From: a virus
DNA length: 59,724 bases
Direction: 5' to 3' (one strand)
IMG/VR virus record: IMGVR_UViG_3300014913_000014
Span: 1-59,724 of that record
A program made the translations under genes and the position numbers. The notes beneath the pieces were generated by a model. That model was not told the DNA's origin and did not search any database. It was given only the letters and a program-made list of their open reading frames with translations. This document shows positions 8,131 to 59,722 of this stretch, piece after piece (within the stretch, counting starts at the first letter, position 1; each line of letters starts with the position of its first letter).

Positions 8131-11100
8131 CTAATCCAAAAAATTCCAATTTGCTGATGAACCACCATTTTCCATTCCAGTACTACCAGACGCAGTTCTG
8201 AAATCCCATACCCAAATAACGAACTGTCCCTGACTTGCCCACTTACTTCCAATTGGTTTAGATGGATAAGGGTCAAGAACACCCATATCACTGCCTAATA
8301 CAGTATAATTTCCAGGAGTAGCTCGTTGAGCTTTCCACATAAAGTGGTAATCATATTGTGTTGGATCATAATAAACGGGTTTATTAGGATCGCCGCCCTC
8401 ATAGTATTGTATAACACCGCTTGCCATTGCTCGATTTTCGTTTGTACAAATACCAAAGCTGGGATGTTGCCTTGTAAAAGGTGCCCAACCGCTTGGAGAT
8501 GCTGGTGGTGGTTTTACATCGGCCCACGTAAATGATGGACCAACATGCCACAGGTGCGTTTCTCCGCCCCATGTTTGTGGATCATCCCCCGCTACTCTAA
8601 TATCCCTAGCAGTAGCAAGCAAAGTATTTTCATAAAATGGTACTTTATAAACACCATGCTTACTTGCACCGCCAGCCTGCCCTCCTATTGGATTAGTATC
8701 CTTTGAAACACTAAAACCTGGATATGTTATCCAATAATGATAAACACCACCATGATCTGGCCAATTACTTCTGGTCCATATCAAATCTGTATTCATCATC
8801 ATAATTTGGCTTGGATTACCAGCCGTGGCGAAATCCTCCAGATCATCATCCCTATCTGGTTGTGATTCTGCTGGAGGCGGATTATGTCCCTCTGCAAAAT
8901 TAAAATTCTTACAAGTAATTTTACTAATTTCTTTGGCATCAAAATCTAATTCCACAACATAAATACCAATATTCACATGTTCTCCCCAATCTCTAGGATG
9001 TTTTTCATCAGGCCATCCCTGGTCCCTACTATCATGGTGCCAGTGTCCATGTTCTCCAACTGAAAATGCAAAATAACCTGTATTACTACTTGTCTTATAA
9101 GTAGTTGTAGCAGAATATGCAGCACCTGCTGGTAAAGGTTGTGGTGCTGTCCATTCACGGGGTACTGGGGATGCCGTACTATCATCAATAGCCTGCCATC
9201 CGAAAAGGCCATCACCATAATATGTTGGTTGATCTTCTGAATAATAGTCATCAACTGGAACACCAATATTTACTGTGTCACGATAAGTAGTCAAACTATT
9301 ATCTGGACTTTCTGTAATATCATCTTCAAAGAATATGGCATCCACAGAAATATACGTACTTGTTGGATAATCATCTCCACCAACCGTGCCTTTATGTCGT
9401 TGTGCATAGACCACAACCCATCTTACTATATCATTATTATTCAACGATGAATAATCTAATAAAGTATAATAATGAGTTGATGGTACGGCAGATGATCCGC
9501 CTTCTGTACAAGTTACTACCTCCCAATCAGGAATATCAGTTTCATCCCATCCCAGATAATCTGTCCAGTAATTTCCAATAGTTCTTGCTATATAGAATTG
9601 ATATGCTGTGTAATGTGTTGTAGTTATTATATAAGCAACTTCTCTATTATTTGGAATCGAGAATAAACAATTTGGTGCATGTAACAAACGAAGTTGATCA
9701 AACGGATTTGTTAGAATAATAACATTTTCAGCATATGCTTTATTTGCTGCCGCAACATTTCCACCAGCGTATCCATCCATATACCAAGTACCACATCTCA
9801 GATATGACCACCCGATTTTTCCAGGTGTCTCTGATACAAATACATAACCAAGATAAAATGTTTCTGCGGCAGATGTATCTGGCGGAGAATAAACTCCTGG
9901 CTCTCCTTCTACAAGTACGGTTACATTTCCACTAATATCACCGACTATGTCATGTGCATGTACATTCCATATAATTGCACCAGATGCTAATGTATTAGAA
10001 AGCATTCTTAATTGTGCCGGGGTCATGCCGTTTCCATTTATCAATGCTGATGGTAAACCAGAGGCCGTTCCAACTGCAATTCCTGTTCCTGGTATATATA
10101 GTTGCATTGAACTCCATGTATATCCAAAATCCGGTGTAAAATATACCCACCATCTTTCCTGTCCCAAAGGAAGTGCCCCACCGCCTCCAGAAACATATCC
10201 AAGAAGATGAAAGCGGTTCATAAATCCTGTTTCTTTTGTTACCTTTGAGAAAGTAATATCAGTTGGAAGAAATTGCCACTCGCCCTCATCATTTGATGGG
10301 TAAGTTTCATCCAAAACTGTAACTCTATTCCATACATCAGCAATTCCAGAGCGTCTGTAAACACCGGATATAGTTACCATCATTAATTGATTGTATGCAT
10401 TTGCAGCAATACTTTGTGCTGGAATGCCTGAAGCTGGTAATCCTTCATTAAACTCTAAGAACGATGTTCCAGCATCGTATGAAACTGCTGCTCCTCCACT
10501 ATCCCCCTCATAAGTAGCATAAACAAAGAACGGTGGTGGTGAAATTGTAATTCTAGGGCACTTCTCTCCAAAAGTAAATGTGGTCTGGGCCCCGCCACCC
10601 TTTGTTACTGAAACACCCTTGCTTGTAATCATTCTATCTGCACGGTACGATATTTCTCCTTGAGAAATATTGATTATAGCGTTATTAGTGATATCCACAC
10701 TTGGATACAAACCTGCACATTCTGCTATAACGATATCATCAAGTGTTCCGGTAATCGACAAAATTCTTGCTGCTACAATATTTGCAAATGTTTGACTTCT
10801 GATTTCAGGACTGGCCAGCACGAATGTCTGATCAGTGGGCAATTCATCCATGGTTGTCCGTGCCACGGCGTTGTATGCATGAGACTGCTGTGTTGTCCAG
10901 TCATAGTCATGTCCGCCCCAAACTTTTACCACATTCCGTGTTGTCTTAGTTCCAAGAGTTTGATCAAAATCAACCAAATTACTAGAATTTATTGTAATTT
11001 TTGGCTCTGCGTCATTTAGTGTATATACAACAATCTTATCTGCATCAGAATCGTAGCGGGTATATACGGCTCCCTTCCTTTCTAGCGTAGCAATGGCCTC

Positions 11101-21329: not shown

Positions 21330-21776
21330 TTATTCTTCCTTTTCTTCTAGTGCCACCACAATTCTATTTACTGTAGGCACTCCTCTTAAGCTAATATCCT
21401 TCTTTACAAAAGTTTTTCCGTCCATTACAACATATTCCATGTTATTAATGGCATTAATATTAGCAGTAGTATACTTTATTTGGAATTGAGCATCGCCCTC
21501 TACCAAAAATCCACCCACAGTCCATATTGGTGTATCTACATTTCTCAACCGTACATGGGCTTTAACTGTCAAGCCTGATACTGTATTTATCCAATAAAAT
21601 CCACTACATGTCGGGCAAAGAGAGTTTACAGATAAATTAGTAACTGGGTCTAAACTACAACCAGATGCAGGACACGGAATTCCTGAAATAGTAACATATA
21701 TAGTAATATCTCTGCCAATAGCATCTCGTATTTCATCTATTACAGTTGTAGTATTAGGTGGCCACGTAATTGACAT
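21330..21776 (-). CDS. head-tail connector candidate with a four-cysteine motif
   Basis: A 148-residue protein with C-P-x2-G-C near residue 35 and L-C-P-x-C near residue 53, a plausible zinc or disulfide knuckle, followed by beta strands (GLTVKAHVRLRNVD, FQIKYTTANINAINN). Place in the order MCP, two adaptors, glycosyltransferase, this gene, neck protein suggests a head-closure or stopper role. Its start lies 23 bases inside the end of the glycosyltransferase gene. Confidence 0.45.
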   Translation of the reverse strand: MSITWPPNTTTVIDEIRDAIGRDITIYVTISGIPCPASGCSLDPVTNLSVNSLCPTCSGFYWINTVSGLTVKAHVRLRNVDTPIWTVGGFLVEGDAQFQIKYTTANINAINNMEYVVMDGKTFVKKDISLRGVPTVNRIVVALEEKEE

Positions 21777-23037
21777 TTATTTCCTCAAAAACCTTTTCAA
21801 ATTGTTTAGCAACGTTTTTCCAATCATACTTATTCTGTCTTACTAACCTGTAGGAATTTTGCCCCAACTTACGCAGCATCTCTCCGCCCTTTAACCAATC
21901 TTGATAAGCTAGTTCTAGCGCCTCTACTGTTCCATCCACGCTTACAACTTTTCCGCATGTATGAGTTATCTCATATAAATGGTCTGCGATAGTTGGAATG
22001 TATATTGCATTATCGCCCCACAATTCACGGGATACAGAGTGATCTCCTACAATTTGTGGTCGTCCGGTGGCGGCATGTTCCCAGCTGCATAGCCCCCAAC
22101 CCTCGCCCATACTTGTATTCAACCCAACATCGCAGGCATTATAAATCATATTCAATTTTTCATCTGGAACCCATGACAATGATGGACTGTTTGATGTGAT
22201 AATTAGCCGCTCATCGAATGAATATCTGACAGCCAGCTTTACAATATCCCACCCCATGTCCTGTGTACCCATATGAAGATATAATTTTACATTTTTAGGT
22301 TTATCTTTTACAAATTTTGCAAAAGCTTTTATAGTAATATCAATACGCTTTCTTGGTTGATTTCTATTAGCATTTAGTACAATGAAAGAGTTCAAAAGTT
22401 CTGGTTTTTGCGTAATTGGTAAAATTGCTTCTCTAGCAAGCTGCATTCCAGTTTTTATAATATTACCTTTTGCATCCTTAATATCTTTTATTGGATAAAA
22501 TGTATCTTTAGCCGTACCATGTGGAATTATTTCAATAATTGATGGATTGACGGCCCCCGTTTCTAAAATAACTCGTTTACCAAATTCTGTGTAAACACAT
22601 ACCTTTTTTACAAGTTCATTATAATCTCGAAACCAGTAAGCGTCATGTTCTGTGGCATCAACTGGAAAATACACAACAACAGGTATTTTCTCAATATTTG
22701 GAATTCTTCCTTTTGCTTCAATAATAAGTGCAAGATATTGTTGTATCACCCATGGGTCATTCAGAATAAAAATGATGTCGGGTCTAATTACCGCAATCAA
22801 ATTCACAAATCGTGCAAATCCCCACACATCTTGCATATTGGCTGTCGGAACAGCCGCAGGATAAATCTTATGGGCATACTCATGAGGATCGCCCCGATAA
22901 TTAATTGCTAGATGGTGTACTTCATAATTCTCACTTAAATTCTTAATTATATTATGATTTACTCTAGCAAATCCTGTTGGTGCAACGCCATCTCCTACCC
23001 AAAGAATTTTGGTCTTTTTTCCATTCCCTTTAGACAT
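21754..23037 (-). CDS. glycosyltransferase, GT4/GT-B family, inside the connector genes
   Basis: A 427-residue GT-B enzyme. The N-terminal Rossmann half begins KILWVGDGVAPTGFARV; the C-terminal half has the nucleotide-sugar motif of GT4 enzymes, GEGWGLCSWEHAATG (about residues 320-335, EX7E-like), and LNANRNQPRKRIDI linking the halves. It would transfer a sugar from a nucleotide donor. It is unusual among the head-tail connector genes; it overlaps the next gene by 23 bases, so it is cotranscribed with virion genes and might decorate capsid or tail proteins, or host surface glycans. Confidence 0.85.
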   Translation of the reverse strand: MSKGNGKKTKILWVGDGVAPTGFARVNHNIIKNLSENYEVHHLAINYRGDPHEYAHKIYPAAVPTANMQDVWGFARFVNLIAVIRPDIIFILNDPWVIQQYLALIIEAKGRIPNIEKIPVVVYFPVDATEHDAYWFRDYNELVKKVCVYTEFGKRVILETGAVNPSIIEIIPHGTAKDTFYPIKDIKDAKGNIIKTGMQLAREAILPITQKPELLNSFIVLNANRNQPRKRIDITIKAFAKFVKDKPKNVKLYLHMGTQDMGWDIVKLAVRYSFDERLIITSNSPSLSWVPDEKLNMIYNACDVGLNTSMGEGWGLCSWEHAATGRPQIVGDHSVSRELWGDNAIYIPTIADHLYEITHTCGKVVSVDGTVEALELAYQDWLKGGEMLRKLGQNSYRLVRQNKYDWKNVAKQFEKVFEEINVNYVAT

Positions 23038-26984: not shown

Positions 26985-28499
26985 CTACTCCTTAGGCGAT
27001 TTGCCTTTAGATTCTGGTGGACTTGAAGGTCTTCCTTCAGGTTTTTTTTGTCCAGGTTGGCCTGCTCCAGGTACATTTGAAGGTGCAACTGGTTCTACGC
27101 CCAACTTTTTCATTAATTCTTCTTCTTTGGCACGCTTTTCCTGTGTCTCCAAGAAGTCATAACCATAAGCCTCGTTATAATCTGTACGTGATAGATTACC
27201 ACTTTCATACATAGCTGTAAGACCATCATAAAATAGCTGTAAACTCATCAAATTGATTGGCTTGAATTTTACAATCGGATATGTGGTCATAACTTTATTG
27301 TATCTTCTCATCTCCAAAAGCACTTTTTCAGCAATAGGTAATAATTGTCTTTGTAACTGTTGCATTGTCTGAAGTGGTGATAATGTAGCAATCTGCGGAT
27401 CAGATGCAAATGATCGCTCTGTTTCTCCCGTGATCAGAATTCTTGGAAATCCAAGGGCTACCATAATATCCTGGTTCACTGTATCATATTTCTTGTCATT
27501 CAAAAGTGTTTCAACTTCTGGAAATACCCAATTTAATTCTACCGTATGATTAGTAAAAAAAGCAAAAACTCTTTCGATGTCATCAGCCGATAATGTCTCC
27601 CGCCACTTGAATTTATTTTCCAAGTCCGTTAGCTCATCTTCTTGATCTTCTGTAAGCGGAAAATCATCATTACCTACTTTTACATGCAAAATAGCGCTAA
27701 TAACTCTGGCTGCAACTGAATAGTCCATTCTACGTAAATTTCTTTTATGCTTTAATGCCTCTAATGCCGGATAAAGGTAAGGAATTGGATAGGCCGAATC
27801 TGCCAACGATAAACTTTTGATTACCAGAGGATTTTCCAATAATACTTTTGTAGCGCCTTCTTTGATCTGTTTTACAAAGTCTGGATAAAGTTTAACGATC
27901 TCTCTGTAAAGTTCTATATCTCTTTCGCCATCCGGATATTCGCCTCCACTTTGAATAAAGAATAGCACTTCTTCAGGAATTCTCAAAAAATATGATTCTC
28001 GTTCAGTAATAAGTGGACGCTTTATTTCAATGTCTTTTGAATCTCGCAACCACATACTTGTAGGATACATAAGGGTATCCAGTCGTTTTATATTCTTATT
28101 AAGCAAATCTTGCTTTTTGATTCGAGTCAGCTTAATTTCTGGAACCAATAAACCCGTAATTAGAAACTCAAAAGCCGCCTTTCTCAAAAATACCATCAAA
28201 TCTTTTTCAAGAGCAGCATAAATTGCCTTTTCTGTAACATTAGCTGTTCCGTCTGCTTGTATAAATAGACCATTAATAGCAATATCAACCAGTTTATGAA
28301 TTACTGTTGATGCTAGTGGATCGTGTCTAAAGTAAAATCTACAATCCTTAACGACTTGTTCATATTTATCGTGATCATCAAAGGCTAATCTATCAACTGT
28401 TGAAACCCAAGGATTATCTGCCCAAGTTCGAGTCATTGATTGGTAGATGGTATATGAACCCGCAAGAGCGCTTGCTAGTTTCTTTGTTTTGTCAACCAT
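26985..28499 (-). CDS. portal protein
   Basis: A 504-residue protein immediately after the terminase gene. Portal-like features are the segment VLFFIQSGGEYPDGERDIEL, the stem/wing region AARVISAILHVKVGNDDFPL (about residues 265-285), and a Pro/Gly-rich C-terminal tail. Twelve copies would form the channel at one capsid vertex. The start is ATG 28499, 4 bases after the terminase stop. Confidence 0.8.
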   Translation of the reverse strand: MVDKTKKLASALAGSYTIYQSMTRTWADNPWVSTVDRLAFDDHDKYEQVVKDCRFYFRHDPLASTVIHKLVDIAINGLFIQADGTANVTEKAIYAALEKDLMVFLRKAAFEFLITGLLVPEIKLTRIKKQDLLNKNIKRLDTLMYPTSMWLRDSKDIEIKRPLITERESYFLRIPEEVLFFIQSGGEYPDGERDIELYREIVKLYPDFVKQIKEGATKVLLENPLVIKSLSLADSAYPIPYLYPALEALKHKRNLRRMDYSVAARVISAILHVKVGNDDFPLTEDQEDELTDLENKFKWRETLSADDIERVFAFFTNHTVELNWVFPEVETLLNDKKYDTVNQDIMVALGFPRILITGETERSFASDPQIATLSPLQTMQQLQRQLLPIAEKVLLEMRRYNKVMTTYPIVKFKPINLMSLQLFYDGLTAMYESGNLSRTDYNEAYGYDFLETQEKRAKEEELMKKLGVEPVAPSNVPGAGQPGQKKPEGRPSSPPESKGKSPKE

Positions 28500-28503
28500 T
28501 TGT

Positions 28504-30051
28504 TTATCCTCTCACCCATCTAGCCGCCGCAAGTGTGGGCCGTTTTTGTGTAAATAATCTTCCATCAACTAACAAGAAATATGTAATCATTGCACATAAT
28601 AATGCTGCTGTAAAGTGATCAGCGCCCCTTTTACCGCCTTTTTGAGTTAAAGTTCTATATACAACTTCCCCAGTTGGCGTTTTTGTATATGTCATCCTTT
28701 CCATTTCTGTAATCATTTCTAAGTCAGTAGATGAGTAAATAATTTTATGAGAATTACTATATTCTTGCAACAAACTTACACTATATGGTTTTGTTTTAGT
28801 TTTTATTTCTTCTCCGTCTGGAGTGTGCCCTAAACTTAACCATGCCCCAAATTTCACTGGAAAAAGTCGTTTGTCGTACTTCTTGTGCACATAATTATCA
28901 TCATGTAGCAAATGCTGTACAAGTCCCTGCTCATTTCCAGCATCTATTCCTATAACTTCTGGGCGTCCAAATTTGTCGTCTAGATAATCAATTATTTTTT
29001 CTTGTAGCGGATATTCCACTTTGGTAAGCTGTATTCTACAGTGGAATTTTATTTTATCATTCTTTTCATATAAAAGTACAATTGCTGTTGGTTCTGTATA
29101 TCCGAGGTCAACACCCATTATTGCTAAGTCGTGTTCTGGAAGCGGCGGTATCAATGCTAGCTTATTTATAATGTCTGAATAGCCATCCTCGATTCCATTT
29201 ACTTTGACTTTATAAATGCTGTAAGTTTGAATGTCTAGTAATCTTCTATCAAATACAGCGAAGGTTGGCGAACCGTGTCGTCCCAAAACCAAATGAGTAT
29301 AGTCTTCACTATCTTTTCCACCATATTGCTTTATATTTCGTTGTTCATCCTCTTCTGTATATCGTGGATTATCATGAGCAGAAGTTCTATGATGACTGAA
29401 CTTATCATCGACCTCATCTGCATAGTAAAGAACATTATTTTCTCTAAGTCCTGTTGGAACTCCAGATACGAATAGTTTATGTCCTTCCTGCCATGAGTTT
29501 AATACGGGCTGAAGCTCTACCCATGTACCCCAGGGATAATAACCTGCCTCATCCAAAATAATAACTGGTGTGTGAAGGCCCACAACATTGGCTCCGGTAC
29601 CACTCTGTCCTGCAATACGACAAATCAATTCTGCAGAATTCAACAGGCGTATAGTATTATTAGAGGCGTTGATGCCCTTTTTTGGCTCAATAAAGTGCTT
29701 CAATAGCTCGTTGTTTCTGAACACTTTTGTCAGATTAAAGAATACTGGCTCTAGATGTGCTTTACTTGGAACAGTGTATACAATATATTCCTGTGGAAAT
29801 AAATTATTAATCAGAATCCATACGATATAATCCGTAAGCGATACCGTCTTGCCTACTGCACGCCCGCAACATAAAGATACATAATGCGAAAAATCGGCTA
29901 GATATTCTTTTTGATATTTTGAATATATCCATTTTTCATCTGACCAACTTGGTATGTCAAGACTCCGATAAAATTCACCACATAATACTGGGTGTCTTAA
30001 TATTTCATAAAGTATCAGGTCCTCTCTTTTTACTTTTTCAGTTATCGCCAT
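28504..30051 (-). CDS. terL: terminase large subunit
   Basis: A 515-residue DNA-packaging motor. ATPase part: Walker A variant GRAVGKT (residues 63-69) and Walker B PVIILDEAG (162-170). Nuclease part, RNase H fold: VDLGY with D315, IGIDAG with D370, and GADHFTAALL near residue 487. The gene precedes the portal gene as usual. Its ATG overlaps the stop of the first sugar-cassette gene (30051). The small terminase is not obvious; the helical protein at 42230 is one candidate. Confidence 0.92.
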   Translation of the reverse strand: MAITEKVKREDLILYEILRHPVLCGEFYRSLDIPSWSDEKWIYSKYQKEYLADFSHYVSLCCGRAVGKTVSLTDYIVWILINNLFPQEYIVYTVPSKAHLEPVFFNLTKVFRNNELLKHFIEPKKGINASNNTIRLLNSAELICRIAGQSGTGANVVGLHTPVIILDEAGYYPWGTWVELQPVLNSWQEGHKLFVSGVPTGLRENNVLYYADEVDDKFSHHRTSAHDNPRYTEEDEQRNIKQYGGKDSEDYTHLVLGRHGSPTFAVFDRRLLDIQTYSIYKVKVNGIEDGYSDIINKLALIPPLPEHDLAIMGVDLGYTEPTAIVLLYEKNDKIKFHCRIQLTKVEYPLQEKIIDYLDDKFGRPEVIGIDAGNEQGLVQHLLHDDNYVHKKYDKRLFPVKFGAWLSLGHTPDGEEIKTKTKPYSVSLLQEYSNSHKIIYSSTDLEMITEMERMTYTKTPTGEVVYRTLTQKGGKRGADHFTAALLCAMITYFLLVDGRLFTQKRPTLAAARWVRG

Positions 30052-30956
30052 TATCGTTTAGACATCCACCATCTAATTATAGTTTCTTCATTGTTTCTAT
30101 CTTGAATATTTATTGTGGGTTGATTATCTACACCCGCAAAATGATAAATCTGTCCGTTGAATGGGACATCCCATTTTTCATGTCCAAAGTCGCCGCCCCA
30201 TTTTGTGTGATAGAAGTTTCTATTCATTTCAAAATATCTACTAGTTGAACCGCCGCTTCCTTGATGAATTGTTCTGCTCCAGAAGTGAAAATAAACTGCG
30301 TTCGTTACTCTACAAGATTTTAGATTAGCATGTATTGCCCGTCGAACATAATCATTATCTTCATAATAAGCTGGATAAAAATTTACATCAATGTAACCAA
30401 TTTTTTCCATGACTTCTTTTTTGAAAAGTGCTAGATTATGTACATCACTCAATCCGGCTCCATTTGTAACTATTTCAGAAGTTCTAAATTTATCTCCAAC
30501 TCTCCAAGGTTCAGCCTCACCAAAATCCACAAATTGATAGCTACTTCCATGAAAGTATTTTCGAGCTTCAGGAAAGTCTCTGCATAAAGATTTTACATCA
30601 TATTCTTGAGCACATACCCACGCATTATCTGTAACATTTGCGACCTTTATCAAAGAATCAATTGCATAAGGATATGGAATTACATCATTTCCCATTACGA
30701 TTAGATTATCATAATCGTGCTCTTTCCAAGCATAATCATAAATGTCATTCAATGATTTTGGAAAGCCCCAATTCAAATTATGAACAATAAATGGAATTCC
30801 CTCTGACTGTAAGTACATTACCGTTCCTGTATCATATGGCTTACCAACAACTAGAAACATATCATATGGTTCAGTAACAGTTCGCCTAATTCCATCTACT
30901 GCCAATTTTGTAAATTCCAGGTTTCCAAACGTAACCATTCCTATAAGCGTTTTCAT
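30051..30956 (-). CDS. glycosyltransferase, GT2-like (GT-A)
   Basis: A 301-residue protein that begins KTLIGMVTFGNLEFTKLAVD, the start of the GT2 nucleotide-binding fold, has a DxD-like NLIVMGNDVIPY (about residue 95) and a later acceptor-loop segment with YYEDNDYVRRA (about 200). ATG 30956 is chosen since it overlaps the upstream gene in ATGA; an earlier ATG at 31016 lies inside that gene. It joins terminase to the sugar cassette. Confidence 0.8.
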   Translation of the reverse strand: MKTLIGMVTFGNLEFTKLAVDGIRRTVTEPYDMFLVVGKPYDTGTVMYLQSEGIPFIVHNLNWGFPKSLNDIYDYAWKEHDYDNLIVMGNDVIPYPYAIDSLIKVANVTDNAWVCAQEYDVKSLCRDFPEARKYFHGSSYQFVDFGEAEPWRVGDKFRTSEIVTNGAGLSDVHNLALFKKEVMEKIGYIDVNFYPAYYEDNDYVRRAIHANLKSCRVTNAVYFHFWSRTIHQGSGGSTSRYFEMNRNFYHTKWGGDFGHEKWDVPFNGQIYHFAGVDNQPTINIQDRNNEETIIRWWMSKR

Positions 30957-31855
30957 CTGTTGAGTGCCTCCTTGACTGTAAATACCACTGCTTCGACATC
31001 TGTCAGATTTGTCCAAAATTTTCTAGCGGGTGTCCCGTGTTCGTGGATAAAGAAACTACCAGGCAGACTATACGAAAAGGCCACAAAAGCTTTTTCTTTA
31101 TCAAAGTGATTATCAAATGTCAAACAAAATGTGTATGGTGCTGAACTTCTTCCAACAATTGTATCGCAAAATCTACTTAGCAACGAAATTTCATTTAGAT
31201 CAGTTCCAGTGGCTGTATGAATAATGTCATTAGTAAAAAACACATTATCTTTGCAAATTGGCGCTCGATGCGTAAGTACAAAAGCCACATCCTCATAACC
31301 ATAGGCCAGTAATTTTATTGCCGGCGTCATATCAAAGTTTTCTGCTTGATTTGATTGTACATTCCCGTTAGAAATTAGAACAATTCTTCCAGGCCATATA
31401 TTATCTTTGAAGTTATAAATTCTTTCTACATGTTTAGGGTGAAATTCTTTTATCTTGTCGAAATCGATTCTAGGCAGATATTCTGGAATAGGTTTCTCAA
31501 GCTTTATATTTAGCCCAAAACTAATATTAAGATTATCCAATATTTCAGTATACATCAGATGATAGTTTTCTAAAGTACAACCAACTCCTGGTAACACATG
31601 TCTAGGATTCAATCCAATCCAGGTATTGATATATAAATCATTGCCGTATACTTTGGTTCTCCAACGACCCTCCATTCGTGGTGTGATCTTGGAATAATGT
31701 AATCCATCAATATCTTCTAGTAAACGCGGATGTTTTCCATGTGCAAACCAAAATTTATTTGCCGGAATTTTCTCCATAAGCTCTTTTACAAAAGCCCTGT
31801 TATTGAACACGTCTCCATTACCAAACCAATTGAAAAATACTACATTATCGAACAT
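30953..31855 (-). CDS. glycosyltransferase-like protein (GT-B/GT9-like)
   Basis: A 300-residue protein with MFDNVVFFNWFGNGDVFNNR at the start and a second half with GRIVLISNGNVQSNQAENF, FVLTHRAP and FCDTIVGRSSAPYTF. The late GxSS..P motif recalls ADP-heptose-type (GT9) transferases, in which two Rossmann halves bind donor and acceptor. The match is partial, so substrate cannot be stated. It overlaps genes on both sides. Confidence 0.6.
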   Translation of the reverse strand: MFDNVVFFNWFGNGDVFNNRAFVKELMEKIPANKFWFAHGKHPRLLEDIDGLHYSKITPRMEGRWRTKVYGNDLYINTWIGLNPRHVLPGVGCTLENYHLMYTEILDNLNISFGLNIKLEKPIPEYLPRIDFDKIKEFHPKHVERIYNFKDNIWPGRIVLISNGNVQSNQAENFDMTPAIKLLAYGYEDVAFVLTHRAPICKDNVFFTNDIIHTATGTDLNEISLLSRFCDTIVGRSSAPYTFCLTFDNHFDKEKAFVAFSYSLPGSFFIHEHGTPARKFWTNLTDVEAVVFTVKEALNR

Positions 31856-32939
31856 AGTCCTTTACCGCCTTTATAATATGGTTTTGTTCTTCCTCTGTTA
31901 ATCCTGGAAATGAGGGTAGAACAACGACCTCCTTTGCTAATAATTCTGCCACTTGTATTTTGCCTCCAAATCTTTTCAGATGTCCGTGATAATTCATTGG
32001 ATAAAACATTGGTCTGGTTTCTATGCCCCTTTCACTGAAAAATTTGTTGGCCGTTTCATAGGAATCCTGCCCAAGAACTCGAATTCCATACATCCAGTGT
32101 GATGGGATAGTGTCATTATCTTTTTTCTGAAGAACAAGCCCATTTATTTCAGAAAATGCTTCATAATAGCGGTCCCAGATTACAGCTTTTTGCAGCATTA
32201 TTTCTGTCCAATTATCTAGCTGTCCAAGAAGAATGGCCGCTTCGACATTTGTCATACGATAATTATGACCAATATCATCGTGAATAAATTTTTTATGGTT
32301 GCCAATAGAAACTCCTTGTCCCCAATATCTATAGGCAATCTCATACAATTCTTTATCATATGTAACAAATGCACCGCCTTCCCCACTAGTAACATTCTTA
32401 TTTCCGAAAAAAGACACCGTAAAAATATCAGATGCAGTTCCAGATTCTAGGTTCTGGTATGATCCTCCGAAACCTTCGCAATTATCTTCCACGACAATTG
32501 CTTTTGGATATTTCTCACGAAATGCTGGAACATTTACAATGTTTCCAAGATTATGCACAATCAAAACAATTGAGCTCCAGTGTTCCGGAAATATAATATT
32601 GTTAAGGTCCATATTCCATGTATCTATATTAGCATCAAAGAACTCTATTCTAAAAGTATCATCAAATAGAAATGGATTCCATGCCGCTACATATACATTA
32701 TTTGGAGCAAAAATTGTTCTTCTATCTACATACTTGGCCTCTAATGCAATTCGCATTAGATGGTTAGCGGCAGTACCGCTATTTGTAAGAATTATATATT
32801 TTGTTCTCCAAAACTCTTCTAATCTATCCTTCAACTCTTCCAAGTAGGGACCTTTTGATGACACCCATGAAGATTCTAGAGCATCATGTGCATAATCTAA
32901 GGACCCCTTTGGAAAATATGGTTTGTAAACTGGTATCAT
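31845..32939 (-). CDS. DegT/DnrJ/EryC1 sugar aminotransferase
   Basis: A 364-residue PLP enzyme of the nucleotide-sugar aminotransferase family. TNSGTAANHL (residues 52-61) holds the phosphate, VVEDNCEGFG places D152 on the pyridine N, and SFFGNKNVTSGEGGA has the Schiff-base lysine K181. Members turn keto sugars into amino sugars such as perosamine (RfbE type). In this cassette it would make an amino sugar for the adjoining glycosyltransferases. Host enzymes would have to supply the keto sugar, as no dehydratase is in the window. Confidence 0.9.
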   Translation of the reverse strand: MIPVYKPYFPKGSLDYAHDALESSWVSSKGPYLEELKDRLEEFWRTKYIILTNSGTAANHLMRIALEAKYVDRRTIFAPNNVYVAAWNPFLFDDTFRIEFFDANIDTWNMDLNNIIFPEHWSSIVLIVHNLGNIVNVPAFREKYPKAIVVEDNCEGFGGSYQNLESGTASDIFTVSFFGNKNVTSGEGGAFVTYDKELYEIAYRYWGQGVSIGNHKKFIHDDIGHNYRMTNVEAAILLGQLDNWTEIMLQKAVIWDRYYEAFSEINGLVLQKKDNDTIPSHWMYGIRVLGQDSYETANKFFSERGIETRPMFYPMNYHGHLKRFGGKIQVAELLAKEVVVLPSFPGLTEEEQNHIIKAVKDYVR

Positions 32940-55996: not shown

Positions 55997-56025
55997 TTGA
56001 CAAAAAAGCCGTTTTATGCTATAAT
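55997..56025 (+). promoter_or_regulatory. consensus promoter of the tRNA array
   Basis: TTGACA (55997-56002), 17 bp, TATAAT (56020-56025), TG one base before the -10, about 20 bases before the first tRNA. TGACA (55998-56002) is repeated inverted as TGTCA (56028-56032) in the same 37-bp geometry as the promoters at 184 and 2891. Confidence 0.92.
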
Positions 56026-56045: not shown

Positions 56046-56118
56046 TGTCGAGTAACTCAACTGGTAGAGTGGCTCCCTGTTAAGGAGATGGTTGGGGGTT
56101 CGAGTCCCTCCTCGACAG
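56046..56118 (+). tRNA. tRNA-Asn (GTT)
   Basis: Acceptor TGTCGAG/CTCGACA, anticodon loop CTGTTAA, T loop TTCGAGT, discriminator G. 73 nt. Followed by CCT, so CCA must be added after transcription. Confidence 0.95.
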
Positions 56119-56159
56119 CCTGAAGATATGCACATTAACAATTGTACTATAATATATGC

Positions 56160-56231
56160 GGGGGATTAGGTTAGTGGCTAAACCAGCAGTCTCCAAAACT
56201 GCCACCGGAGGTTCGAGTCCTTCATCCCCTG
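56160..56231 (+). tRNA. tRNA-Trp (CCA)
   Basis: Acceptor GGGGGAT/ATCCCCT, D stem GGTT/AACC, anticodon stem GCAGT/ACTGC with loop CTCCAAA, discriminator G. The anticodon is the standard CCA, not a suppressor. Confidence 0.95.
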
Positions 56232-56235
56232 CCTA

Positions 56236-56333
56236 TGCCCTGTACCCCTTACGTTGGTTTACACCGTAGTAAATCAAAGACGCTGTTTGAACAGGCAGGG
56301 CTGGGAGTGTCAAAAGGGGTTGAATGGCACTCC
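56236..56333 (+). ncRNA. structured spacer RNA between tRNA-Trp and tRNA-Gln
   Basis: GCCCTG (56237-56242) closes with CAGGGC (56296-56301) around two hairpins, GGTTTAC/GTAAATC (56256-56262, 56269-56275) and CTGTT/AACAG (56283-56294); a third hairpin GGAGTG/CACTCC follows (56304-56333). An open frame also begins at 56235 but runs on through two tRNAs and has no ribosome site, so RNA is the better reading. Function unknown. Confidence 0.45.
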
Positions 56334-56337
56334 GTGC

Positions 56338-56408
56338 TGCAGAGTCGTCTAGTGGTAGGACAGCGGACTCTGAATCCGCTTACGGAGGTTCGAATCCTTC
56401 CTCTGCAA
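56338..56408 (+). tRNA. tRNA-Gln (CTG)
   Basis: Acceptor TGCAGAG/CTCTGCA, anticodon stem GCGGA/TCCGC with loop CTCTGAA, T loop TTCGAAT, discriminator A. Confidence 0.95.
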
Positions 56409-56413
56409 CCTGA

Positions 56414-56484
56414 AGCTAGGTCGTCTAATGGTAGGACACGGGCCTTTGAAGCCCACGATGGCGGTTCGAATCCTCCCCTAGCTG
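56414..56484 (+). tRNA. tRNA-Gln (TTG)
   Basis: Acceptor AGCTAGG/CCTAGCT, anticodon loop CTTTGAA, discriminator G. One mismatch in the T stem and one at the base of the anticodon stem. With the CTG species it covers both Gln codons. Confidence 0.9.
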
Positions 56485-56497
56485 CCTAGGAGGTGCT

Positions 56498-56674
56498 ATG
56501 TCAATACCAACATTGACTCTTTTATCTACAATTTTAGCCATCGTTGATGATGAACAAGAAGAAATAGATCATGTCTATTATTATGATGATAAAGACGGCC
56601 CAATCAGCGAATCGGATAAAATGGATGAAGAGCTAGAAGATATCGAATATCGAACAAAATTTGATAGGAGGTAG
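56498..56674 (+). CDS. small acidic protein inside the tRNA array (58 aa)
   Basis: A 58-residue protein with a perfect ribosome site (TAGGAGGTG) before its ATG. The first 16 residues are hydrophobic (SIPTLTLLSTILAIV) and the rest very acidic (DDEQEEIDHVYYYDDKDG). Its last 10 bases, including the stop TAG, form the start of the following tRNA-His gene, so translation and tRNA processing compete for the same RNA. Function unknown. Confidence 0.7.
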   Translation: MSIPTLTLLSTILAIVDDEQEEIDHVYYYDDKDGPISESDKMDEELEDIEYRTKFDRR

Positions 56675-56736
56675 GTTATGCGGTAAACCGTCGGGTTGTG
56701 GCCCCGATAAAGAGGGTTCGAATCCCTTCCTCCTGA
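56665..56736 (+). tRNA. tRNA-His (GTG)
   Basis: Acceptor TAGGAGG/CCTCCTG (first pair T-G), D stem GGTT/AACC, anticodon stem TCGGG/CCCGA, loop TTGTGGC, discriminator A. The G(-1):C73 pair of bacterial tRNA-His is not encoded (base -1 is A, base 73 is A), which is odd. The 5' end overlaps the stop of the 58-aa gene. Confidence 0.85.
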
Positions 56737-56740
56737 CCTT

Positions 56741-56816
56741 GGTCTTGTGGTGTAGTTTGGTCTAACATGCTTCCCTGTCAAGGAAGAGATCGAGGGTTCA
56801 AATCCCTTCAAGACCG
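56741..56816 (+). tRNA. tRNA-Asp (GTC)
   Basis: Acceptor GGTCTTG/CAAGACC, anticodon stem CTTCC/GGAAG with loop CTGTCAA, T loop TTCAAAT, discriminator G. Confidence 0.95.
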
Positions 56817-56821
56817 CCTTT

Positions 56822-56903
56822 GCCGATATGGTGAAATTGGTAGACACAGTTGCCTCAAGAGCAATCGCCGAAAGGCATGTAGGTTCGAATCCTACTATCG
56901 GCA
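56822..56903 (+). tRNA. tRNA-Leu (CAA)
   Basis: Acceptor GCCGATA/TATCGGC, anticodon loop CTCAAGA, long variable arm (class II), T stem GTAGG/CCTAC, discriminator A. Confidence 0.95.
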
Positions 56904-56908
56904 CTTAT

Positions 56909-56994
56909 GGAGACATGGCCGAACAGGATAAGGCGCTAGTCTTGAAAACTAGTGAGGCCGTCAGGCTGTGCAGGTTCGAGTCCTGCTGTCTCCG
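56909..56994 (+). tRNA. tRNA-Ser (TGA)
   Basis: Acceptor GGAGACA/TGTCTCC, anticodon stem CTAGT/ACTAG with loop CTTGAAA, long variable arm, discriminator G. Confidence 0.95.
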
Positions 56995-56997
56995 CCT

Positions 56998-57135
56998 ATG
57001 GTGATACCTTTTATTGGCTTTGATTTATTATTGCATGCGCCCTTTGGATATGACCGTATACCATTTGCAGGGCATGTATGGGGGATTTGTTTCCATCCTC
57101 CACTTGATTTTCATGTACTTATATGGATAAGTTAG
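56998..57135 (+). CDS. possible small hydrophobic protein (45 aa)
   Basis: An open frame of 45 residues from ATG to TAG fills the space between tRNA-Ser and tRNA-Cys; its last base is the first base of tRNA-Cys. The protein is hydrophobic and rich in His, Phe and Pro (MVIPFIGFDLLLHAPFGYD). There is no ribosome site, the upstream bases being tRNA-Ser, so translation is doubtful. Confidence 0.3.
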   Translation: MVIPFIGFDLLLHAPFGYDRIPFAGHVWGICFHPPLDFHVLIWIS

Positions 57136-57206
57136 GTCAGAAACCCAATCGGCTAGGGAAGCGTCTGCAAAACGTTTTTTGGTGGGTTCGATTCCCACTC
57201 TGACCT
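57135..57206 (+). tRNA. tRNA-Cys (GCA)
   Basis: Acceptor GGTCAGA/TCTGACC, anticodon loop CTGCAAA, T stem GTGGG/CCCAC, discriminator T, as expected for Cys. Position 8 is A rather than T and the D stem is short (CCC/GGG). Confidence 0.88.
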
Positions 57207-57210
57207 CCTT

Positions 57211-57503
57211 GTGACGGCTTGAGCCCACGCTGTACAATTGTGCAGAGGAAACTCAGGACTACTCCGCTTAAGGTGGGAGGACTATCAGTAGGCAGGGGCC
57301 ACGGTGAACATAAGAAACCACCCCCGAAATTTAGTCCGATTTACCACCGAGGTAGCAATCCTAAATTGCCTAGTGGGTGAGCGGCACTATGATGGCGTGG
57401 TTGGAGCAGTAACTCATAAAGAGTTACCACCGCAAGGTGAGATAGATGTGGGCAGGTTTCTAACATTAGAAATCTAACAGAATTCTGGTTACGGAGCCGT
57501 CAC
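57211..57503 (+). ncRNA. rnpB: RNase P RNA (phage-encoded), 293 nt
   Basis: The catalytic RNA that cuts tRNA 5' leaders. Visible: P1 GTGACGGCT/AGCCGTCAC (57211-57219, 57495-57503); P2 GCCCAC/GTGGGC (57223-57228, 57448-57453); P3 CTGTAC/GTGCAG; region I AGAGGAAAC; P4 formed by 57250-57258 and 57483-57490 with one bulged T (57253), the place of the universally conserved bulged U; region V AGATAGATG before P2' and ACAGAA before P4'. GCCAC (57299-57303) recalls region II, and CACC-GCAA-GGTG is a GNRA-capped P18-like hairpin. At 293 nt it is compact versus 350-400 nt in bacteria. It lies 4 nt after tRNA-Cys. Confidence 0.88.
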
Positions 57504-57713
57504 ATGCATAAACTTAATTATCGTAAGACGTGGAAAGAATTTGGCAAGAGAATCCGAATAATTAATGGTTATCCCGCTTGTAGATGGCCCAGAAGAGGTT
57601 GTGGTCGATATTGGAAACGGCAATTGAGCAAGGCTCGTCGCAGAGCGTGGAAAGACCCACATCAAAGAGGTCTTCTACGTTGGGAACGTGAATGCAATTG
57701 GAAAAATTGGTGA
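57504..57713 (+). CDS. very basic Trp-rich protein next to RNase P RNA (69 aa)
   Basis: A 69-residue protein with 22 Arg/Lys and 7 Trp (e.g. RWPRRGCGRYWKRQLSKARR), strongly suggesting RNA binding. Its ATG directly follows the last base of the RNase P RNA, and the best ribosome site, GGAG (57493-57496), lies within the 3' strand of P4-P1, so folding of that RNA would hide it. It does not match the RnpA fold signature closely, but a protein partner of the RNA is a natural guess. It could be unrelated. Confidence 0.6.
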   Translation: MHKLNYRKTWKEFGKRIRIINGYPACRWPRRGCGRYWKRQLSKARRRAWKDPHQRGLLRWERECNWKNW

Positions 57714-57717
57714 AAAG

Positions 57718-57948
57718 ATGACAGATATATCACTTACTGGCGGAGTCAAATTAGTAGAAAAGGCTCCAGAAAATTTAGAAATTGGAGAGGGTACATTTCC
57801 AGCCCATGGTGGAAAATTTAGAGGAGTAAGTGTCGGAAGAAACGACTATGGTTACTTCGTCTTTACTCATAGAACTAATTCCAAAGAGTACAACTCTCCA
57901 GCAGATATACCTGACGAAACTATTACATTTGTCAGAAGTACAGGATAA
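57718..57948 (+). CDS. hypothetical protein (76 aa)
   Basis: A 76-residue beta-rich protein (MTDISLTGGVKLVEKAPENL, GVSVGRNDYGYFVFTHRTNS). ATG 57718 is chosen because GGTGA lies before it and it starts 4 bases after the basic protein; an in-frame ATG at 57688 would overlap that gene. No family recognised. Confidence 0.6.
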   Translation: MTDISLTGGVKLVEKAPENLEIGEGTFPAHGGKFRGVSVGRNDYGYFVFTHRTNSKEYNSPADIPDETITFVRSTG

Positions 57949-57963
57949 TAAATTATAGCATTG

Positions 57964-58052
57964 TGGAATGTTGGCTGAGTGGCTGAAAGCGCCTCCCTGC
58001 TAAGGAGGTAGACGGTAGTACTGTCTCGAAGGTTCGAATCCTTCACATTCCG
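57964..58052 (+). tRNA. tRNA-Ser (GCT)
   Basis: Acceptor GGAATGT/ACATTCC, anticodon stem CCTCC/GGAGG with loop CTGCTAA, long variable arm, discriminator G. CCA is encoded (58053-58055) and the next tRNA starts at once. Confidence 0.95.
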
Positions 58053-58055
58053 CCA

Positions 58056-58130
58056 GCCGATGTAGCTTTAATTGGATAGAGCGACCGCCTTGTAAGCGGA
58101 GGGTTGTGGGTTCGAGTCCCACCTTCGGCT
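58056..58130 (+). tRNA. tRNA-Thr (TGT)
   Basis: Acceptor GCCGATG/CTTCGGC (one T-T mismatch), anticodon loop CTTGTAA, T stem GTGGG/CCCAC, discriminator T. Followed by CCA (58131-58133). Confidence 0.9.
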
Positions 58131-58141
58131 CCAAAAAGTAC

Positions 58142-58170
58142 TTGACAAATCATAGATTTTCTGCTATAAT
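58142..58170 (+). promoter_or_regulatory. second consensus promoter within the tRNA array
   Basis: TTGACA (58142-58147), 17 bp, TATAAT (58165-58170). It drives the distal tRNAs from tRNA-Arg(ACG) onward. GCACATTAACAAT shortly after it is also found after the first tRNA (about 56129). Confidence 0.9.
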
Positions 58171-58201
58171 ATGACAGCACATTAACAATAGAGGGCTTTT
58201 A

Positions 58202-58273
58202 GCACCTGTAGGCTAATGGATAAACCGCTTGGCTACGGACCAAGAGTTGGAGGTTCGAATCCTCTTAGGTGCT
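58202..58273 (+). tRNA. tRNA-Arg (ACG)
   Basis: Acceptor GCACCTG/TAGGTGC, anticodon stem CTTGG/CCAAG with loop CTACGGA, discriminator T. A34 needs host TadA to become inosine. Confidence 0.92.
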
Positions 58274-58278
58274 CCTTT

Positions 58279-58366
58279 GGACGTATGGCTGAGTCTGGTT
58301 GAAAGCACCGGTCTGTAGAACCGGCGAGGTTTGTCCTCCACGGTGGTTCAAATCCATCTGCGTCCA
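58279..58366 (+). tRNA. tRNA-Tyr (GTA)
   Basis: Acceptor GGACGTA/TGCGTCC, anticodon stem CCGGT/ACCGG with loop CTGTAGA, long variable arm as in bacterial tRNA-Tyr, discriminator A. Confidence 0.95.
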
Positions 58367-58370
58367 CAAT

Positions 58371-58453
58371 GCCGGTGTGGTGAAACTTGGTAGCCACGCA
58401 CGCCTTAGAAGCGTGTGCCTTCGGGCGTAGAGGTTCGAATCCTCTCATCGGCA
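58371..58453 (+). tRNA. tRNA-Leu (TAG)
   Basis: Acceptor GCCGGTG/CATCGGC, anticodon stem CACGC/GCGTG with loop CTTAGAA, long variable arm, discriminator A. The first structured repeat RNA starts 3 nt after it. Confidence 0.95.
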
Positions 58454-58456
58454 CTT

Positions 58457-58532
58457 GGGGCTGGATATAGCGATTACATAGCAAACAACTATACTTTGTT
58501 TATACGTTTTATATCGCTATAGTTTTTGCCTC
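58457..58532 (+). ncRNA. tRNA-linked structured RNA repeat, copy 1
   Basis: P1 GGGGC/GCCTC (58457-58461, 58528-58532), conserved TGGAT, P2 ATAGCGAT/ATCGCTAT (58467-58474, 58513-58520), conserved TACATAGC, a variable apical hairpin (AAACAA/TTGTTT) and AGTTTTT before P1'. It lies 3 nt after tRNA-Leu(TAG) and 8 nt before tRNA-Phe. Copies 2 and 3 share the conserved bases and change the paired bases together. Confidence 0.75.
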
Positions 58533-58540
58533 TTTGATTT

Positions 58541-58613
58541 GTGCCTGTAGCTCAGTCGGTAGAGCATCTGTCTGAAGAACAGAGGGTCATGGGTTCAACT
58601 CCCATTGGGCACA
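58541..58613 (+). tRNA. tRNA-Phe (GAA)
   Basis: Acceptor GTGCCTG/TGGGCAC, anticodon stem TCTGT/ACAGA with loop CTGAAGA, T stem ATGGG/CCCAT, discriminator A. Confidence 0.95.
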
Positions 58614-58616
58614 CTG

Positions 58617-58684
58617 AGGGCTGGATGTGATGATTACATAGCCAAAGGTTATCACACAATCTATATCATTGCAGCTTTTGCCCT
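58617..58684 (+). ncRNA. tRNA-linked structured RNA repeat, copy 2
   Basis: P1 AGGGC/GCCCT (58617-58621, 58680-58684), TGGAT, P2 GTGATGAT/ATCATTGC (58627-58634, 58665-58672), TACATAGC, apical ATAGCC/GGTTAT hairpin, AGCTTTT before P1'. Placed 3 nt after tRNA-Phe and 8 nt before tRNA-Ala, as copy 1 is placed between its tRNAs. Confidence 0.75.
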
Positions 58685-58692
58685 GATATATT

Positions 58693-58765
58693 GGGGCTAT
58701 GATAGTAATGGGGAACTATCCTCGTTTGCACCGAGGCATTCTGGGTTCGAATCCCAGTAGCTCCA
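58693..58765 (+). tRNA. tRNA-Ala (TGC)
   Basis: Acceptor GGGGCTA/TAGCTCC, D stem ATAG/CTAT, anticodon stem CCTCG/CGAGG with loop TTTGCAC, discriminator A. G3-T70 is the identity wobble pair of tRNA-Ala. Confidence 0.93.
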
Positions 58766-58767
58766 CA

Positions 58768-58891
58768 AGGACCAGCCGTAATTTATAGGATTATGGGCTG
58801 GGACCTGCCGTGGTTTTGACGATTGTACCATAAACAAGCGTCCTCTGGTCCCCTTAACGGGAACTCGAACCCGCATGGCAGTTTCTGGTCC
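58768..58891 (+). ncRNA. structured spacer RNA between tRNA-Ala and tRNA-Pro
   Basis: CCAGCC/GGCTGG (58772-58777, 58796-58801) is a first hairpin. CTGCCGTG/CATGGCAG (58805-58812, 58874-58881) closes a larger domain, with GGACC/GGTCC possibly extending it. Inside, GACG-A-TTGT/ACAA-G-CGTC (58818-58842) makes a long hairpin with the 7-nt loop ACCATAA, and CCC/GGG (58850-58861) a short one. No coding frame fits. It resembles none of the three repeats. Role unknown. Confidence 0.5.
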
Positions 58892-58921
58892 ATGCCTGCC
58901 TTATCAAAAATGGGCCACATT

Positions 58922-58994
58922 CGGGGTGTGGTCGAGTGGTTAAGGCGCGCGGTTTGGGGCCGCGAAATCGCTGGTTCGAATCCAGCCATCCCGA
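58922..58994 (+). tRNA. tRNA-Pro (TGG)
   Basis: Acceptor CGGGGTG/CATCCCG (C1-G72 as in tRNA-Pro), anticodon stem CGCGG/CCGCG with loop TTTGGGG, T stem GCTGG/CCAGC, discriminator A. Confidence 0.95.
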
Positions 58995-59029
58995 CCTTGA
59001 TTTCTAATTAAGCCCTTTAACATTTATAT

Positions 59030-59102
59030 AGCGGGGTGGACAAGTGGTTAAGTCGCTCGCCTCATAAGCAAGAGATCGAGGGTTCGAATCCCTCCCCCGC
59101 CA
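59030..59102 (+). tRNA. tRNA-Met (CAT)
   Basis: Acceptor AGCGGGG/CCCCGCC with an unpaired A1-C72 end, anticodon loop CTCATAA, T stem GAGGG/CCCTC, discriminator A. A mismatched first pair is a mark of bacterial initiator tRNA (normally C1-A72), but the anticodon stem lacks the three G-C pairs of initiators, so elongator or Ile(lysidine) identity stays possible. Confidence 0.85.
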
Positions 59103-59107
59103 CCTTT

Positions 59108-59190
59108 GCCGGTGTGGTGAAATATGGTAGACACGCCTGACTTAAGATCAGGTTCCTTCGGGAGTGCAGGTTCGACTCCTGCCATCGGCA
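59108..59190 (+). tRNA. tRNA-Leu (TAA)
   Basis: Acceptor GCCGGTG/CATCGGC, anticodon stem CCTGA/TCAGG with loop CTTAAGA, long variable arm, discriminator A. Acceptor identical to tRNA-Leu(TAG). The third repeat RNA starts 3 nt after it. Confidence 0.95.
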
Positions 59191-59193
59191 CTT

Positions 59194-59279
59194 GGGGTTG
59201 GATGCCTTGATTACATAGCTTTGAAAAGTTTAATGAAACTTTTATCCATTTATCCATTTATCATGGCAGCTTTTACCTC
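59194..59279 (+). ncRNA. tRNA-linked structured RNA repeat, copy 3
   Basis: P1 GGGGT/ACCTC (59194-59198, 59275-59279), TGGAT, P2 GCCTTGAT/ATCATGGC (59204-59211, 59260-59267, one mismatch), TACATAGC, apical AAAAGTTT/AAACTTTT hairpin, AGCTTTT before P1'. It is 3 nt after tRNA-Leu(TAA) and 4 nt before tRNA-Arg(TCT). The last P1 pair is T-A instead of C-G in copies 1 and 2. Confidence 0.75.
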
Positions 59280-59283
59280 ATTT

Positions 59284-59357
59284 GCTTCTGTAGTTCAGTG
59301 GAATAGAACAACGGTCTTCTAAACCGGAGGTCGCAGGTTCAAATCCTGCCAGAAGCG
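59284..59357 (+). tRNA. tRNA-Arg (TCT)
   Basis: Acceptor GCTTCTG/CAGAAGC, anticodon loop CTTCTAA, T stem GCAGG/CCTGC, discriminator G. Last of the 20 tRNAs. Confidence 0.95.
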
Positions 59358-59371
59358 CCTAGGAGGGAACT

Positions 59372-59722
59372 GTGTACAAAGTAGCAATAGTAGGTAGTAG
59401 ACGTTTTAATGACTACAACTTTATGCGGCGTGTACTAGACCCCCATGTTAACGATATCTCAATGATTATCTCTGGAGGAGCAAAAGGTGCAGATACACTG
59501 GCACAAAGATATGCAAGAGATAATGGAATACCAATATATATTATATATCCTGACTATAGAAAATATGGAAAAGTGGCACCGTTTCGTAGAAATGTAATAA
59601 TTGCAAATCTTGCAGAGAAAATGATAGCATTTGCTTATTCAGATAGTCGGGGAACAAGGCATGCTGTCAACAAAATGAAGCAACTTAACAAACCAGTAGT
59701 AGTAATAGAATTGGACCAGTAG
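59372..59722 (+). CDS. SLOG-domain protein (YspA/DprA-like)
   Basis: A 116-residue Rossmann-like protein. VAIVGSRRFNDYN (residues 4-16) and MIISGGAKGADTLAQRYA (about 31-48) are the nucleotide-binding signatures of the SLOG superfamily, close to YspA. Such domains bind nucleotide-derived ligands and appear in DNA processing and in anti-phage signalling; in a phage it may bind or sense such a ligand, which is inference. It starts at GTG 59372 with AGGAGG 6 bases upstream and ends 2 bases before the window edge. Confidence 0.8.
   Translation: MYKVAIVGSRRFNDYNFMRRVLDPHVNDISMIISGGAKGADTLAQRYARDNGIPIYIIYPDYRKYGKVAPFRRNVIIANLAEKMIAFAYSDSRGTRHAVNKMKQLNKPVVVIELDQ

Follow-up and report, generated by a model that had tools for sequence, protein, structure and literature searches.

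A tailed phage carries, inside an array of 20 tRNA genes, a compact gene for an RNase P RNA (P RNA) that, judged by its sequence, its predicted fold, and its relatives, has a type-A catalytic core without being a canonical type-A molecule. The gene lies in the IMG/VR record IMGVR_UViG_3300014913_000014, a linear virus contig whose full length of 59,724 nt was analyzed (here called the window). A permissive Rfam scan of a 721-nt stretch, covering 4,227 families, aligned positions 57211 to 57507 of the plus strand with the bacterial RNase P class A model (RF00010) over all of its 367 positions (model positions 1 to 367; 47.3 bits, E = 1.8e-13). This score is under the RF00010 gathering score of 100, so the window RNA fails the curated cut-off; a gathering-mode Rfam scan returned the 20 tRNAs only, with no RNase P RNA in its list. 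The gene was overlooked by standard annotation because of this low score.

The fold of the RNA is consistent with the covariance match. The minimum free energy of positions 57205 to 57505 was −109 kcal/mol (mean of 100 dinucleotide shuffles, −85.1; z = −4.3; 0/100 as low). Nine core helices form, all of them perfect except for one G-U pair in P4 (Table 1), and the first and last bases of P1 fix the extent of the RNA exactly, to the same bases that the original prediction, made without database searches, had assigned to an RNase P RNA. The criteria for membership in the RNase P RNA superfamily are met: P1, P2, and P3 are arranged with the P2/P4 pseudoknot topology (9/9, 6/6, and 6/6 pairs), P4 has a single bulged U between CR-I and CR-V, and a family covariance model (RF00010) matches significantly. 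The type-A criteria are met in part. The P6 pseudoknot between J5/7 and the P16/17 loop, a kind of pseudoknot that is missing from type B, forms with 7/7 pairs, and the L15 GGU is present; a full specificity domain (S-domain) with CR-II and CR-III (P8 to P14) is not, since only 67 nt lie inside P7. Because the S-domain and Rfam cut-off criteria are unmet, we did not file the RNA as canonical type A.

Table 1. Features of the RNase P RNA gene and its surroundings in the window
Feature	Position	Strand	Basis
RNase P RNA gene (predicted), compact, type-A catalytic core	57211..57503	+	RF00010, helices, covariation in relatives
P1 5′ strand, partner 57495-57503, 9/9	57211..57219	+	helix pairing
P2 5′ strand, partner 57448-57453, 6/6	57223..57228	+	helix pairing; perfect and covarying in 15/15 distinct members tested
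P3 hairpin CUGUAC/GUGCAG, 6/6	57230..57245	+	helix pairing
CR-I GAGGAAA and P4 5′ strand AAC(U)CAGGA, bulged U 57253	57245..57258	+	RF00010, pairing
P5 5′ strand CUAC, partner GUAG 57352-57355, 4/4	57259..57262	+	pairing, covariation
P6 pseudoknot 5′ strand CCGCUUA, partner UGAGCGG 57378-57384 in P16/17 loop, 7/7	57264..57270	+	pairing, covariation
Reduced specificity domain: P7 57272-57276/57344-57348 (5/5) around 67 nt	57272..57348	+	pairing
Stem inside P7	57279-57283/57333-57337	+	pairing
P15 57359-57361/57403-57405 (3/3) and L15	57359..57405	+	pairing, covariation
P16/17 hairpin, 5/5	57371-57389	+	pairing, covariation
L15 GGU, tRNA 3′-CC(A)-binding motif	57399-57401	+	pairing; present in all 23 cores
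Two P18-region hairpins, the second CACC-GCAA-GGUG	57409..57439	+	direct reading
AGAUAGAUG, P2 3′ strand, ACAGAA (57477-57482), and P4 3′ strand UUCUGGUU (57483-57490)	57440..57490	+	RF00010, pairing
Array of 20 tRNA genes surrounding the P RNA	56046..59359	+	ARAGORN, Rfam
tRNA-Cys, ends just before P1	57135-57206 plus CCU	+	tRNA prediction
Perfect TTGACA-17-TATAAT, extended −10, before the first tRNA (tRNA-Asn)	55997..56025	+	12/12 matches, consensus only
Second perfect TTGACA-17-TATAAT, extended, ahead of tRNA-Arg	58142..58170	+	consensus match
69-aa strongly basic ORF with RYWKRQLSKARRRAWKD motif, starts directly after P1	57504..57713	+	ORF, homologues

Helices P1 to P4 had been predicted, and all of them form. 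The flanks that had been likened to bacterial RNase P (AGAGGAAA, AGATAGATG, and ACAGAA) are likewise all found in the window P RNA. The account of P4 needs one amendment: its strands (AAC(U)CAGGA with UUCUGGUU) are paired and the bulged U is kept, but the helix is not a textbook P4, as the near-invariant G after GAGGAAA is replaced by C and the opposite base is G. The replaced base is the equivalent of E. coli G68. This compensated G-to-C swap is seen again in relatives.

The genomic context is that of a phage. The window encodes a large terminase, a tape measure protein, a family A DNA polymerase, UvsX/RecA, DnaB, and RusA, along with a weak major-head match, and is a tailed-phage contig; the terminase (phrog_2) is only supportive as a phage marker, as bacterial controls also match it. 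The late genes include glycosyltransferases and an aminotransferase (21754-23037, 30051-31016, and 31845-32939), which suggest sugar modification of the virion or the host surface. ARAGORN confirmed the 20 tRNAs counted in the original prediction, all on the plus strand. The P RNA follows tRNA-Cys, precedes the small basic ORF, and is located in the first of two putative transcripts of the array: from their match to the extended sigma-70-type promoter consensus alone, the element before tRNA-Asn likely promotes the transcript carrying the P RNA, and that ahead of tRNA-Arg likely promotes the second half of the array. CCA is encoded by only 2/20 of the tRNA genes, and CCU follows the discriminator in 12/20. 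Three intergenic elements (58452-58533, 58612-58686, and 59189-59280), each directly after a tRNA, share GGGGCUGGAU...GAUUACAUAGC...GCUUUUGCC and one common two-stem hairpin whose inner arms differ yet stay complementary; they may serve the array as structured spacers or as processing signals. A YspA-like SLOG-family ORF (59372-59722) lies at the end of the array.

To determine how widely such genes occur, we scanned IMG/VR with degenerate patterns built on GAGGAAANTCNGG...ACAGAANNCNG, leaving the P4 positions free. Complementarity of P4 among the motif matches was bimodal, with 87 matches at 8/8 pairs and a chance group at 2 to 5. RF00010 matched 88/91 tested records at E ≤ 0.001, and 70 of these exceeded the cut-off; the largest of the contigs measured 497 kb. 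In total, 113 P RNA loci (89 distinct) were collected. Most of them are not host rnpB: at least five tRNAs lie within 6 kb at 75/113 loci, and 1196/1205 tRNAs at those 75 share the strand of the P RNA; in 35 loci, a tRNA ends <70 nt before GAGGAAA. The original prediction had supposed that RNase P RNA is rarely if ever described in phages. This is consistent with the open literature searched, in which we found no report, but it understates the frequency of the gene in uncultured phages, where it is commoner (~75 IMG/VR contigs with tRNA arrays).

Several observations from this survey stand apart. In eight loci (L029, L064, L085, L098, L116, L024, L152, and the window), the tRNA immediately upstream of the P RNA is tRNA-Cys, the highest count for any tRNA. 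One record (L123, IMGVR_UViG_3300031227_008087) apparently carries two tandem P RNA-like copies on the minus strand near position 9740, among 35 tRNAs, and was excluded as atypical. A separate sequence group of reduced viral P RNAs (L069, L031, L046, L072, and L038) scored 81 to 127 bits, some with odd S-domains. We rejected L028 and L062 for poor homology and L154, L155, L158, L160, L167, L173, L176-L178, and L185 as chance or partial motif matches, and none of 17 loci from a region-V pattern scan of IMG/VR was confirmed by RF00010. Searches for relatives of the window through its DNA polymerase found none, and those through positions 26985-28499 found three contigs, all without an RNase P match. 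Among cultured phages, no carrier was established with the three queries used against INPHARED: blastn of the window region gave no match, a viral type-A P RNA retrieved Acinetobacter host rnpB beside a prophage, Microcystis phage MaAM05, and unannotated or bacterial records, and a second viral P RNA gave no match. The MaAM05 match (MW495066.1, 111320-119472) is rnpB-like and unannotated, surrounded by mtgA, glyS, fabI, and engB; this region looks like bacterial DNA despite its phage label.

Two sequences of the window, GCUUAAGG following P5 and GGUGAGC within the P16/17 loop, were shared by a few matches. Scanning with GAGGAAANTCNGGN8GCTNAAN4G, which leaves free both strands of P5, P15, and P2, nearly all of P7, and the outer P6 pairs, defined a compact subfamily of 29 loci, the window included, with 23 distinct cores. 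Across these cores, 97.4% of cells were paired, versus 82.8% in shuffles, the covariation score was 0.416 versus 0.138, and 0/500 shuffles reached any of the measures. Both sides changed in 15/27 pairs, and sliding the partners lowered pairing to 31 to 50%. By helix, pairing was 100% in P5 (four covarying pairs), 98.8% in P6 (two covarying pairs), 98.4% in P4, 98.3% in P7, and 87% in P15; in P2, the 15 distinct members tested averaged 6.0 pairs versus 3.7 in shuffles. Segments were cut by motif anchors and the best-paired cut was chosen among alternatives, which biases slightly toward structure; first-match segmentation gave the same picture. The L15 GGU, which the search pattern does not fix, was invariant among the 23 cores. 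This invariance is partly by construction because GGU anchored the segmentation expression, for lack of which no member failed. At the P4 pair adjoining the bulged U, 13 cores have C-G, 9 have G-C, and 1 has U-G; G occupies that position in those bacterial comparators where the motif was located (a spurious first match in L200 was disregarded).

RF00010 matched 18/26 subfamily records, 0/26 above the cut-off, over 189 to 293 nt. P7 encloses between 16 and 102 nt (16 to 21 nt in the smallest members), so a canonical S-domain is lacking. The 96-kb contig L152 shares with the window the order tRNA-Cys, P RNA, basic ORF, and second small ORF, but its P7 encloses 18 nt rather than 67. Together, the covariance match, the phage hallmark genes, the type-A helices, and the compensatory changes support the claim that a phage has an RNase P RNA of its own, encoded among its arrayed tRNAs. 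The prediction had proposed a covariance search, folding, and comparison with related contigs as checks; the first was significant, albeit under the gathering score, the second gave a lower energy than every shuffle, and the third revealed compensatory changes in P4, P5, P6, P7, P15, and P2. It would have been refuted by the lack of a covariance match or by P4 and regions I/V being unconserved in relatives, and neither applies. The sub-threshold score leaves room in principle for a chance resemblance in tRNA-rich sequence; we consider this practically negligible, given the E value, the nine paired core helices, the synteny conserved in L152, and the bimodal P4 pairing, and the covariation in 23 cores already refutes it.

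We then asked whether the compact form is viral or cellular. In 84,980 GTDB species genomes, a stricter subfamily motif found two loci, one of them a chance match. The sole true core (L184) comes from a Planctomycetia MAG, where its contig of 6.8 kb also carries three tRNAs. Members of that order carry rnpB genes of the usual kind (37/41 genomes above the cut-off, 131 to 300 bits), and we infer that the L184 contig is probably phage DNA that was binned with the MAG. These counts bear on the idea that the window gene is a captured or decaying remnant of host rnpB, or that it is host DNA binned as viral. Its low Rfam score would fit such an origin, and some IMG/VR and INPHARED matches are indeed host rnpB beside prophages, recognizable in IMG/VR as isolate-derived contigs with identical 334-bit matches and no tRNA array. 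However, the window has phage hallmark genes, the compact form occurs once in GTDB versus 29 loci that are nearly all from IMG/VR, strong covariation excludes decay, and 0/87 records have RnpA, which together make this origin highly improbable. As far as these data reach, the compact form is viral.

No gene for the protein subunit accompanies these RNAs. RnpA (PF00825) was found in 0/65 tRNA-array P RNA records and 0/27 compact-subfamily records, the window included, and in none of the 87 records searched overall, while 10 bacterial controls were positive. This absence is not absolute because some records are fragments. The basic ORF after P1 was considered as a dedicated protein subunit, a reading weakened by its homologues: one is in L152 in the same synteny, and the other is in a contig (L005) without an RNase P match. 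The 86-aa ORF that follows (57688-57948) matches phrog_3666, of unknown function, and lies likewise downstream of the basic ORF in L152. With RnpA missing from these records, the partner must be the host's RnpA unless the RNA acts without any protein.

We propose that the product of the gene, expressed from the phage tRNA operon, is probably a functional RNase P ribozyme. We observed homology, structure supported by covariation, same-strand linkage to tRNA arrays, and RnpA absence; catalysis, the host-protein partner, and the phage-tRNA substrate are inferred, and there are no activity or expression data for cleavage of pre-tRNA 5′ leaders by the window RNA. The RNA would be transcribed together with the tRNAs and would probably associate with host RnpA, since the phage has none. 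Its catalytic domain retains all that is required to hold the acceptor end of a pre-tRNA and to position the catalytic metals, namely P4 with the bulged U, the conserved flanking strands that line the active site, the P6/P16-17 pseudoknot, and the L15 GGU for the 3′ CC(A). It could thus remove 5′ leaders from densely packed, newly made phage tRNAs and add 5′-processing capacity during infection. Most of the specificity domain, whose chief contribution is to affinity for the T-loop region, has been shed. Against a working ribozyme stand the absence of canonical CR-II and CR-III and the replacement, though paired, of the near-invariant P4 G next to the metal site. The role of the L15 GGU before CCA addition is uncertain because most window tRNA genes lack an encoded CCA; CCU ends occur in 22/27 tRNA genes of L152, most other compact-subfamily arrays favor CAA, and CCA is encoded in many of the arrays that have a full-size P RNA. 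In favor of the proposal, the E. coli catalytic domain alone cleaves in trans, less efficiently (PMC5839562), RNase P processes T4 tRNAs (PMC11143913), and host rnpB is relatively stable during infection (PMC9697503).

A serious alternative, if an unlikely one, is that the P RNA works mainly in cis: being cotranscribed with its substrates, it would therefore cleave the tRNAs on its own transcript, with no high-affinity S-domain and perhaps no need of a protein. The 3′ end of tRNA-Cys adjoins P1, the S-domain is minimal and variable even between the syntenic window and L152, no RnpA was found, and a P RNA of catalytic domain only can be catalytic without protein (PMC5839562). However, P2, P3, and neighboring regions are kept, and many viral P RNAs with full S-domains are also in arrays. 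These kept regions are where bacterial RnpA docks. A ribozyme acting on phage tRNAs with host RnpA remains the preferred reading, also over a decoy that would shut down host RNase P by titrating its RnpA or its pre-tRNAs. Surplus P RNA without RnpA would compete for the host protein, and phages, we infer, commonly attack host RNA metabolism, but a decoy has no need to keep the active-site helix P4, the bulged U, and the L15 GGU, the helices are under compensatory constraint, and the gene lies in tRNA arrays. As the catalytic parts are constrained, we regard the decoy as very unlikely.

Compared with bacterial type A, the phage RNA has P1 to P5, P7, P15, P16/17, the bulged-U P4, the P6 pseudoknot, the L15 GGU, and the GAGGAAA, AGAUNNAUG, and ACAGAA strands, with a full-length covariance match. 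It differs in being viral, in a tRNA array, and without an RnpA gene alongside; in size (~190 to 300 nt versus ~340 to 420 nt); in its S-domain, which consists of P7 and a variable hairpin, and its score below the Rfam cut-off; and in the equivalent of E. coli G68, which is C or U in 14/23 distinct cores and still paired. Natural archaeal type P RNAs of Pyrobaculum likewise contain the catalytic domain but lack almost all of the specificity domain (PMC4919922); these work with archaeal proteins, whereas the phage RNA keeps the bacterial type-A P6, P16/17, and L15 GGU; we infer that the two reductions are independent. T4 also has closely spaced tRNAs needing 5′ maturation but uses host M1 RNA, while the window phage brings its own P RNA. 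Huge phages share phage tRNAs, synthetases, and CCA-adding and modification enzymes, but RNase P is unmentioned in the main text of that report (Al-Shayeb 2020). More tentatively, and with considerable doubt, the subfamily may be a minimal phage ribozyme that evolved independently, a P RNA cut to its catalytic domain (~190 to 300 nt), cotranscribed with its tRNA substrates and processing them in cis or with little protein. If so, the bacterial world would have a natural RNase P that does without a specificity domain.

RNase P RNA is regarded as a cellular housekeeping ribozyme, and neither the reviews nor the phage survey examined here count it as a phage gene. We found no report of a phage-encoded one in the open full-text literature; priority is not proved because subscription papers and preprints were mostly outside the search. 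A T4 study suggested host rnpB for phage tRNA processing (PMC9697503), and phage tRNAs appear only as substrates in a review of RNase P (PMC11143913). The results presented here show that dozens of uncultured phages carry P RNA, in most cases within a tRNA array, and that the standard Rfam cut-off hides a compact subfamily; they suggest that some phages supply the tRNA 5′-processing step themselves. Compact phage P RNAs are natural minimal forms for asking what the specificity domain does, and natural compensated variants at the P4 metal-site base pair are now available.
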